Positions 46,482 through 51,271 of a stretch of 56,729 bases of DNA are shown in pieces. The notes beneath the pieces are model-generated. The model made no database searches. It worked only from the letters and a program-made list of their open reading frames with translations, and was not told the origin of the DNA. Each line of letters begins with the position of its first letter. The stretch's first letter is position 1. The DNA lies in the NCBI GenBank assembly GCA_028278105.1, contig JANQEX010000091.1:1-56729 (forward strand), written 5' to 3'. The position numbers and the translations under genes were made by a program. This DNA is from Alphaproteobacteria bacterium (GTDB lineage Bacteria > Pseudomonadota > Alphaproteobacteria > UBA9219 > RGZA01).

Positions 46482-46569
46482 TTGGGGGTTTCCCCGCCCG
46501 GATCGCGCCCACAGGGCACTGGACAAACCGGCGAACAAAACCTATACCCACTACCGTTTTGATGGGTAC

Positions 46570-46645
46570 GCCTGGGTAGCTCAGTCGGTAGAGCAACGGA
46601 CTGAAAATCCGTGTGTCGGCAGTTCAATTCTGCCCCCAGGCACCA
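46570..46645 (+). tRNA. tRNA-Phe (GAA), copy 1
   Basis: Acceptor GCCTGGG/CCCAGGC, D arm GCTC...GAGC, anticodon stem-loop CGGAC TGAAAAT CCGTG (anticodon GAA), T arm GGCAG TTCAATT CTGCC, and an encoded CCA are all present. A second copy at 51134-51209 differs at one base. Confidence 0.97.
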
Positions 46646-46875
46646 TTAGCTTTGCCTGGCGAACGAAGTGAGCCTTGGCAAAGCTTATGTCCGCTAATGA
46701 ACGGACGTGGTACGAGTACCTTCAAAGTGATTGGAAGGCCGCTGATGATTGTCTCAAAGACATCATCCAAATCGCCAGAAAAGACCTTAAAACATAAACA
46801 TTTATTTCGTCCTTGTTGCCGGGAGAATAGTCTTGCAACCTGTGGGGCCCCGACAAATTACGGATTCCCTCCAGC

Positions 46876-49800
46876 ATGTTGAACGGCCGCTTATACGCCC
46901 AGGATTTTCTGCTTGATGGAATTACAAGGCTCCCCGAATGGGCCGCCATTAGCGATGGTGCGATTGCGGAGTTTCAAAACTCCCTGAAAGCGATTTATAA
47001 GCCGTTTCTGAAATCGGCCGGGCCCAAGGAAGGCGTAACCGAGCAGGATTGCATTTACAAAATAATCTCTTTGCTGAAATGGGAATACCTGACCCAGCAA
47101 GTAGCGGCTGAAAGGGCACGGGATGTTCCCGATGCCCTGCTGTTTGCATCAGCCGAAGAAAAGGGCAGGGCCGCAACTCTGCAAAAACAGCAAGACCGCT
47201 ATCGCCTTGGCCTCGCCATTCTGGAAAACAAGGCGCGGGACATGCCGCTTGACCGCGCCACCGGGCGGGAGGAAGCCCCCTCAACCCAAATTCTGCGTTA
47301 TTTAACGACGGCGGAAATTCAGTCCGACCGGAAAATCCGCTGGGGACTGTTAACGGATGGCTGTGTGTGGCGGCTTTATTTCGCCCATGCGCGTTCGCGT
47401 TCGGAAGACTTTCTTGAAATTGACCTGCCCGCCGTTCTGAAAATGCCGGGGCGCGAGAATCTGTTTGTTTCGGCGCAGCCTGCCACCCACTGGTTAAAGG
47501 TATTCCTTCTGTTTTTCAACCCCGGCGCATTTACGGCAAGCGGGCCGGAGGCAAGCTGCCTGCATGACCGCGCCCTGACCGAAGGCCGCTTGTGGGAAGC
47601 GCGTGTTGCCAAAACTCTTTCCGACCTTGTGTTCAACGACGTTTTCCCGCTGCTGGTGAACGGCCTTTATGAAAATGATGACAAACGCCCGGCGCGGCCT
47701 GACGACGCCTATCTGATGCAGGTGAAGCAGGCCGCTCTGGTTTTGCTCTATCGGCTGCTTTTCCTGCTTTACGCCGAAGACCGCGACCTGCTTCCGGCAT
47801 CCGACAACCGCTATGATGACTATGGCTTGCGCAAGCCCGTCCGGGACGAAATCGCCCGACGGGTTGATACCAACGACACATTTTCGGAAAAAAGCGCGAA
47901 GTTCTTCAATCACCTGAAAGAGCTTTTCGGCATTGTCGGTCAGGGCGATGCCAGCCTTGGCATTCCGCCCTACAATGGCGGCTTGTTTTCCGCAGAAGCG
48001 GCGCCTGTGCTGGAAAGAAGCAAATTGCCTGATAGCGTGATGGCCGTCGTTATCGACACGCTGGCGCGGCGCGAGGAAGGGGGGCGCAAGGTCTACATCA
48101 ATTACCGCGACCTTTCGGTTCAGCAGCTTGGCTCAATTTACGAAAGGCTGCTGGAGTACGATATAAAGCTGGATGAGGGGCATCCTGTCGTCGCGCCCAA
48201 CATTTTCGCCCGTAAGGGCAGCGGCAGCTATTACACGCCCGATGAACTGGTGCGGCTGATTATTGAACGCGCCATTGGGCCGCTTATTAACGAGAAGCTC
48301 GAAGCGTTTGAAGCCTTGCTAGGAAAAGCAACAGAAGCAAAAGGCAAAATCCGCAAGGCGGATCTGGAAAAACAAGACCCGGCCTCCGCCATTCTCGAAT
48401 TAAAAATCTGCGACCCGGCCATGGGCAGCGGGCATTTTCTTGTCTCCATGGTTGACTATCTGGCGGATAGGATTCTGGTGGCCATGTCATGGGCCGAAAA
48501 TACCGGCGCGGAACATGATTATGTTTCCCCTCTGGCGGCGCGGATAGAAGCCATCCGCGAGCATATTCTGGCCGCCGCCGAAAAGAACGGATGGGTTGTG
48601 AAGGAAACCCAGCTTGAAGACCGTATGCTGGTAAGGCGCATGATCCTCAAGCGCGTGACCCATGGCGTGGATAAAAATCCCATGGCGGTGGAACTGGCCA
48701 AGGTTGCCCTGTGGCTGCACACCTTCACGGTGGGTGCGCCGCTTTCTTTCCTTGACCATCATTTGCGCTGTGGCGACAGCCTGTTCGGATCATGGGTCAA
48801 CCCGGTGATGAGTGACCTTGCCAGCCGCGGCGGACTGCTTCTTCATACAGAGGTTACGAAGCTCCGCACGGCGGCGGCCGAAATGGGCATGGTGGAAAAC
48901 CTGACGGACGCCGATATTACGGAAGTGCGCCAGTCCGCCGGCACTTTTGCCGATATTTCCAAACGCACCGCGCCACTGGACAGGCTGCTTACGCTTTATC
49001 ACGCGCTGAAATGGGCCGTGGATGACGGCAGGCAAAAGCGCCTTGCCGTGAAGGGTTTTTTTGAGGGGACCAATGGCGACCCGCTGCCGGTGCTCATGGG
49101 CAGCGCCAAGCCTTCCGTTCCTAAAAAGCTGGACGGCCAATCCCGGTCTTCGGCGAGAATGGCCGCCGTCGCCGAGGCCGCAGGCCTGTTCCCTGACCTG
49201 CTGGCCCGCGCTGAAGCCATTGCCGAAGAGCAAAAATTCCTGAACTGGCAGGTGGCCTTTCCCAATGTATGGACGGATTGGGAAAGCGCCGAGCTGAAAG
49301 GCGGCTTTGATGCCGTTATCGGCAACCCGCCATGGGACAGAATAAAGCTGCAAGAGGTGGAATGGTTTGCCGCCCGCAAGCCCGAAATTGCCATGCAGCA
49401 ACGCGCCAGCGACCGCAAGAAAATGATCGCGGCTCTTGAAAGGGCCAAAGACCCGCTGGCAAGGGATTACGCCTACGCGGCGGGAATGGCCGAGGCCGCC
49501 TCCCGCGTGGCGCGGGCCAGGGAAGAAAAGGGCAGGGGTGATTATCCGCTTCTGTCGGGCGGCGATACAAACCTTTACAGCCTGTTTGTTGAACGCGCAT
49601 CCCGGCTGGTGAATGCAAGGGGCATTGTGGGGTTGCTGGTGCCGTCCGGCATTGCATCCGACCTTGGCGCGAGCGAGTTTTTTAGATCCGTCGCCACCAC
49701 GGGCCGCCTTGCCGCGCTGATAGATTTTGAAAACCGGCGGGGCAGGGGGAGTGATGATTTTTTTCCTGATGTGCATAGCTGTTTCAAATTCTGCATCTTC

Positions 49801-50997: not shown

Positions 50998-51127
50998 ACT
51001 CAAGTCATTGAAAAGACGAGATGAACATTCCGGGCAAGGTTGCGCGGCAACCGCGACCCGGAATCCAGTTTGTTCCTGAAAACAAATGGGATTCCCGCTT
51101 TTCCTCCTCCGCAAGCTTCGGCGCGAC
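50976..51127 (-). repeat. Dispersed repeat, family R (copy 5), ending against tRNA-Phe copy 2
   Basis: CTAGGTTCAATGGACAATTA at 50976-50995 is the reverse complement of the end of copy 3 at 2200-2219. CCGCAAGCTTCGGCGCGACG then runs directly into the second tRNA-Phe. The repeat supplies the stop codon of the type IIG gene. Confidence 0.7.
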
Positions 51128-51133
51128 GGGTAC

Positions 51134-51209
51134 GCCTGGGTAGCTCAGTCGGTAGAGCAACGGACTGAAAATCCGTGTGTCGGCAGTTCAATTCTGCTCC
51201 CAGGCACCA
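51134..51209 (+). tRNA. tRNA-Phe (GAA), copy 2
   Basis: Identical to copy 1 except a C-to-T change at 51198, which turns one T-stem G-C pair into G-U; the molecule should still fold. The identity also covers six bases before the gene (GGGTAC) and the T after CCA. CCA is encoded. Confidence 0.95.
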
Positions 51210-51271
51210 TATTTGATGTCACGACTGGACCCCGTGTCGCGCTCGCAAGGCTCGCTTGCACGGGGCGCAGG

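Follow-up and report, generated by a model that had tools for sequence, protein, structure and literature searches.

The restriction-modification (R-M) gene in this DNA lies between two tRNA-Phe genes, and we read the arrangement as the eroded remains of a tRNA-Phe island, in which illegitimate recombination has rebuilt the distal end. If a number is to be put on this reading, we would give it a probability of about 0.55. The argument turns on the distal junction, where a truncated MITE runs directly into the second tRNA gene. The window (the whole stretch of DNA that was analysed, 56,729 nucleotides) is an entire contig, G000:C27, of a fragmented MAG, G000, which consists of 119 contigs and 2.05 Mb.

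Two tRNA-Phe genes at a conserved locus

The features of the locus are these.

44615-46481, plus strand: conserved core upstream of the tRNA-Phe gene (maf, rng, yacG), from Pfam and from the order in G001 and other relatives
44615-45193, plus strand: maf (Pfam PF02545)
45190-46308, plus strand: rng, RNase E-G (Pfam PF10150)
46305-46481, plus strand: yacG (Pfam PF03884)
46520-46548, plus strand: likely native promoter of tRNA1, TGGACA-17-TATACC (aligned flanks)
46564-46646, plus strand: first copy of the 83-nt repeat, made up of the leader GGGTAC, tRNA-Phe1 and a T (repeat comparison)
46570-46645, plus strand: tRNA-Phe1, anticodon GAA (ARAGORN)
46646-46694, plus strand: hairpin trailer after tRNA1, stem AGCTTTGCC/GGCAAAGCT, -20.2 kcal/mol, z -3.3 (folding and sequence matches)
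46876-50997, plus strand: type IIG-like R-M gene, 1373 aa (Pfam Eco57I and N6_Mtase; motifs)
51134-51209, plus strand: tRNA-Phe2, anticodon GAA, complete, with MITE sequence upstream (ARAGORN)

The arrangement maf-rng-yacG-tRNA-Phe is kept across the taxonomic order, and the DNA after the tRNA differs in every relative compared. The earlier note had proposed looking in close relatives for a single tRNA-Phe without the R-M gene. In G001, another species of the same genus, one tRNA-Phe follows yacG and the R-M gene is absent, the contig stopping ~580 bp past the tRNA; three genomes of the same family likewise have one tRNA-Phe match each and no R-M gene, which brings the relatives of this kind to four. 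The empty-site comparison is one between species and not within one.

The same note had described two full tRNA-Phe genes enclosing an R-M gene, within an 83-base repeat that has a single C/T difference. It was right on both counts: ARAGORN finds both tRNAs, the ORF between them carries Eco57I and N6_Mtase domains, and the 83 nt (GGGTAC, the tRNA and a T) contain one internal difference, at tRNA position 65, which is C in copy 1 and T in copy 2 and converts the T-stem pair G49-C65 into G-U in tRNA2. In its full extent the direct repeat (46561-46646 and 51125-51210) is 86 nt long at 98% identity, and its second mismatch stands immediately left of the 83 nt (T at 46563, C at 51127). Near-identity over the 83 nt is far beyond chance. 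A count of tRNA-Phe genes in the genome, which had been suggested as a further check, gave just the two copies of the window; G000 has no other clear tRNA-Phe.

The statement that the segment has no integrase also stands. No integrase ORF lies between the tRNA copies, and the only two matches to PF00589 anywhere in G000 are away from this contig, on C4 and C56. Between tRNA1 and the R-M gene, phmmer found neither an integrase nor a remnant of one; the queries were two integrases from islands and two proteins of Xer-like type. The small ORF at 46687-46797 (36 aa) is without a relative in the loci compared, and no partial tRNA-Phe fragment was seen in the sequence beside tRNA2 or between the two tRNAs.

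The flanks tell the two copies apart. Counterparts of the likely tRNA1 promoter occur in the aligned flanks of G001 (TGGACA-18-TATAAC) and of contig G027:C65 (TGGACA-17-TATAAG). An automatic promoter consensus scan does not list TGGACA-17-TATACC, because the second hexamer does not end in T. By its conserved promoter, tRNA1 can be recognised as the copy that occupies the ancestral place. Upstream of tRNA2 there is no counterpart of the native promoter, and MITE sequence is found there instead. Since the MITE replaces the promoter and the T stem has a G-U pair, tRNA2 may be silent, or it may be transcribed by read-through.

A few observations on the surroundings can be added. The hairpin sequence CCATTAGCTTTGCC...GGCAAAGCTTATGTCCGC is found directly 3' of the CCA of tRNA-Phe and tRNA-Lys(CTT) in G000; besides the window, the loci are G000:C13 at ~6943-6996, L148 and L150. 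Similar hairpins follow a tRNA-like sequence in G017 and tRNA-Asn in G022. The hairpin has the look of a palindromic element that is associated with the 3' ends of tRNAs. Just downstream of tRNA2, at 51358-52353 on the minus strand, a Fic/DOC domain is fused to a C-terminal MerR helix-turn-helix domain. Close to the end of the contig (55571-56569, plus strand) a protein is encoded that matches NF048003 of NCBIfam, a phage head spike fiber domain (2.2e-29), with no obvious prophage around it.

A MITE joined to the tRNA-Phe leader

Two further features define the distal junction.

50980-51136, plus strand: MITE, left part only, with its terminal repeat GGTTCAATGGACAATTA at 50980-50996 and TA before it (genome repeat search)
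51128-51136, plus strand: junction microhomology GGGTACGCC, common to the MITE interior and the tRNA-Phe leader, its first copy being at 46564-46572 (copy comparison)

When ~50990-51133 was used as a query against G000, 251 first-look candidates were obtained, 26 of which were scored, nearly all at 89-98% identity. Complete copies are about 160-250 bp long and non-coding, with 17-bp inverted ends (GGTTCAATGGACAATTA / TAATTGTCCATTGAACC) and TA on both sides; the end sequence has 153 matches in the 2.05 Mb of G000 versus 0 in a reversed-pattern control. On account of the inverted ends, the TA target duplication, the non-coding character and the many copies, the repeat at 50980-51136 is assigned to a MITE family. 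Its start maps to 50977-50980, within the last codons of the R-M gene, and the C-terminal residues GSMDN and the stop codon of that gene are read from the MITE terminal repeat.

Further ends of this MITE occur in the window at 2201-2217 (minus strand) and, with one mismatch, at 86-102 (minus strand). The MITE family has a middle module that is palindromic and variable, and the family has weak relatives in G001. No IS630-type DDE_3 transposase (PF13358) that might be the parent of the MITE was found in G000.

Full copies of the MITE read ...AAGCTTCGGCGCGACGGGT[G/A]CGCCAAGACCTCGGCG... and run on to TAATTGTCCATTGAACC-TA, whereas in the window copy ...AAGCTTCGGCGCGACGGGTACGCC gives way to TGGGTAGCTCAG, the sequence of tRNA-Phe. 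Likewise, GCGCGACGGGT[G/A]CGCCAAGACCTCGG of the full copies stands against GCGCGACGGGTACGCC, again followed by TGGGTAGCTCAG, in the window. No second terminal repeat was found near the window copy; its right half is missing. The exact sequence GACGGGTACGCC is present in two sampled MITE copies, L180 and L182, and the native leader of tRNA1 is GATGGGTACGCC. Because these MITE copies and the native leader both match there, we place the join inside the 9-nt GGGTACGCC. The base that precedes the microhomology in the tRNA2 copy, the C at 51127, is MITE-like, and the native leader has T at this place. The microhomology would be at least GGGT if the parental MITE carried G.

The comparison shows that a MITE entered the R-M gene at its last codons, and that the right half of this MITE was lost afterwards, when it became joined to the tRNA-Phe leader across GGGTACGCC. 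With the right half of the MITE missing and GGGTAC common to leader and MITE, the distal junction must be the product of an illegitimate event. The GGGTAC flank of the 83-nt repeat is then best taken as microhomology and not as the flank of an attachment site. Retro-insertion of a pre-tRNA was considered and set aside, as the MITE explains the 5' edge.

Could the assembler have made the junction by linking contigs that do not belong together, with the tRNA repeat or the MITE as the point of contact? The assembly is in many pieces and a good number of the MAG contigs start or end at a MITE, so the question is a fair one. We consider such an artefact very improbable. The suspect join is 9 bp, much shorter than an assembler overlap, and the two tRNAs can be told apart by one base, by the flank on either side and by the trailer. 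In addition, a misassembly through the 83-bp repeat would do no more than exchange the flanks, and the join between MITE and tRNA would stay.

The same junction would also arise if tRNA-Phe and its leader had been duplicated first, in tandem or through a circle, so that the island came to lie between the copies and a deletion then ran from the MITE to the distal leader at the nonamer. A single deletion of this kind would account at once for the absent integrase, the absent attR-like fragment and the absent promoter of tRNA2. It needs two events before the deletion, however, and the four relatives from the same genus and family have one tRNA-Phe match each. We regard this order of events as possible but doubtful.

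The R-M gene and its homologues

The R-M protein has an Eco57I domain (2.2e-18) and an N6_Mtase domain (Pfam). Like type IIG (Eco57I-class) enzymes, it combines in a single polypeptide a PD-ExK-like motif, motif I and NPPW: the nuclease-like pattern PD-(x)-ENK, which may belong to a nuclease domain, is at aa 85-119 (with P85, D86, E117 and K119 invariant in three homologues), and the methyltransferase motifs are DPAMGSGHF (motif I, aa 513) and NPPW (motif IV, aa 817). It differs from them in that PADLOC prefers DrmMI of DISARM (1.2e-76), the type IIG model coming second (7.3e-66). No other DISARM genes were seen beside the R-M gene. We call the putative enzyme type IIG-like because DrmMI outscores the type IIG model, yet no DISARM partner gene adjoins. 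A search for solved structures resembling the protein gave no match.

We compared the loci of 80 relatives of the gene, of ~47-54% identity, taken from species genomes. Within the taxonomic order there is no nearer homologue than that of G027, at ~52% identity. A tRNA lies within 10 kb in 19 of the 80 loci, and in all but one of the 19 the 3' end of the nearest tRNA faces the R-M gene (18/19; one-sided binomial p 4e-5, an optimistic value because the loci are partly related and include three tRNA-Ala cases in Roseomonas/Rhodospirillales). tRNAs are also denser at less than 1 kb from the homologues than at greater distance: 7 of 20 fall in this zone, which makes up 14% of the flanking DNA (p 0.013). 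Eight loci have a 16-48-nt repeat of the tRNA 3' end beyond the gene, and six of the eight contain a recombinase that phmmer detects. One of the eight, from the same order, is L109 (G027:C65), which reads tRNA-Phe, integrase, R-M gene, two small genes, integrase and a 48-nt repeat of the tRNA 3' end. To judge from their surroundings, homologues of this R-M gene are often the cargo of tRNA islands with partial repeats. The window departs from this pattern, with its repeat of a whole tRNA and no integrase; a duplication of a whole tRNA was found around none of the homologues in the 80 loci.

Several individual loci deserve mention. In L114, L121 and L124, the Roseomonas/Rhodospirillales cases, the homologues are 11-28 bp from the 3' end of tRNA-Ala and no far-side repeat was found; these may be old, eroded islands sharing one site. 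In L104, L082 and L122 they are 124-214 bp from tRNA-Leu, tRNA-Ser and tRNA-Lys, respectively. L082 has, 29 bp behind the R-M gene, a 106-aa piece resembling the second island integrase, possibly a stage of integrase loss. In L053 (G048:C114, 4160-8541) the homologue sits in a translation operon, between infC and rplT, where an integrase is absent; its reading frame is broken near the end by a stretch with masked bases.

Homologues in such islands, one of them at tRNA-Phe in the same order with integrases and a 48-bp 3' repeat, invite the suggestion that the window holds a classical site-specific island: a tyrosine integrase would have inserted it into tRNA-Phe, the two tRNAs would be attL and attR, and the integrase would have been lost later. 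Yet the far-side repeats at the eight homologue loci are the 3' end of the tRNA (16-48 nt) and never the whole of it, as is expected for islands of the Islander type (PMC4383910), and what bounds the distal copy on its left is the MITE microhomology join and not an att core. As an account of the present two ends we hold this unlikely. Classical integrase insertion may nevertheless have been the way in which the R-M gene first arrived at the tRNA-Phe locus. The Islander definition of a tRNA island requires a partial tRNA fragment and an integrase (PMC4383910). The window shares with such islands the position of the insert on the 3' side of a tRNA and the homologous R-M genes as cargo, but it has a complete tRNA at the far end, no displaced fragment and no integrase, and it falls outside the definition.

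Order of events and possible routes

The R-M gene predates the MITE, which in turn was present before tRNA2 was joined to it. The distal junction must then be the most recent of the three, and it is no trace of the original integration. This bears on a proposal of the earlier note, that the segment was gained by recombination between complete tRNAs. Insertion at tRNA-Phe is borne out by the variable downstream DNA of the relatives and by the islands of the homologues. The repeat is not a simple record of recombination between complete tRNAs, the left edge of its distal copy being the MITE junction; such homologous recombination is half of the history at most.

For an eroded island with a rebuilt distal end, we can suggest the following course. 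A donor piece, linear or circular and consisting of tRNA-Phe, the R-M gene and the MITE, would come from a close relative carrying the island or from a sister chromosome, and would meet a chromosome whose tRNA-Phe locus is empty. The left join would be made by homologous pairing in yacG/tRNA-Phe and the right join by microhomology, as in homology-facilitated illegitimate recombination (HFIR). Alternatively, a circle closed at GGGTACGCC could have been integrated through a single crossover in the tRNA, with an identical product sequence. Either route leaves the tRNA-Phe of the recipient intact behind the insert, since the illegitimate join fell in its leader, and this is why the whole tRNA and not just its 3' end would be duplicated. 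A recipient tRNA-Phe that was never cut is the simplest account of the whole tRNA behind the insert.

In HFIR, junctions have 3-10 bp of microhomology as a rule, and recipient DNA of similar size is usually removed (PMC3240628). Homologous pairing at one end and 9 bp of microhomology at the other, inside this range, agree with it; the window differs in that we infer the process from one sequence and that a recipient deletion is not visible. The overall anatomy matches a kind of event known from R-M genes as insertion with long target duplication (Nobusato et al. 2000, as described in PMC3031569 and PMC1643837). As far as those descriptions go, the window structure resembles it in having an R-M gene within long direct target repeats and no recombinase; the one tRNA-Phe of G001, which is another species and whose contig stops soon after it, may correspond to the single copy that a relative has in such cases. 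Unlike the cases described there, it has precisely a tRNA gene as the repeated target, and microhomology with a MITE forms the distal edge of the repeat. Our literature searches for islands flanked by whole tRNAs found no direct precedent.

The anatomy also makes it plausible, as the earlier note had suggested, that the R-M gene can be deleted between the repeats without the loss of tRNA-Phe. Recombination between the 83-bp repeats would remove the gene and leave the promoter, a tRNA-Phe and the trailer of tRNA2. The recombinase-less island H47 of E. coli is excised by host recombination through its flanking repeats (PMC5426353). Both islands have flanking direct repeats and no recombinase of their own. 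The repeats of H47 are imperfect and ~145 bp long, with a tRNA not mentioned in that paper, and its excision was observed, whereas the loss of the window segment is something that we infer.

One end of an R-M long target duplication can here be read at base resolution, and what is found there is a join to a MITE through microhomology. When a full tRNA repeat encloses an island, the two copies are not necessarily attachment sites of an integrase. Should the repeats still recombine, some members of the population could lose the defence gene and keep tRNA-Phe unharmed.

To our knowledge, the mechanism that produces long direct repeats enclosing R-M genes is not settled. A further speculation, which we think quite unlikely to be correct as it stands, is that the microhomology between MITE and tRNA leader serves to close or join a unit of tRNA, R-M gene and half MITE, and that this unit enters and leaves chromosomes by homologous recombination via complete tRNAs. 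If this were true, abundant MITEs beside cargo genes would offer a recombinase-free route of mobility, and would explain in concrete terms how the 'long target duplications' of R-M genes come about.
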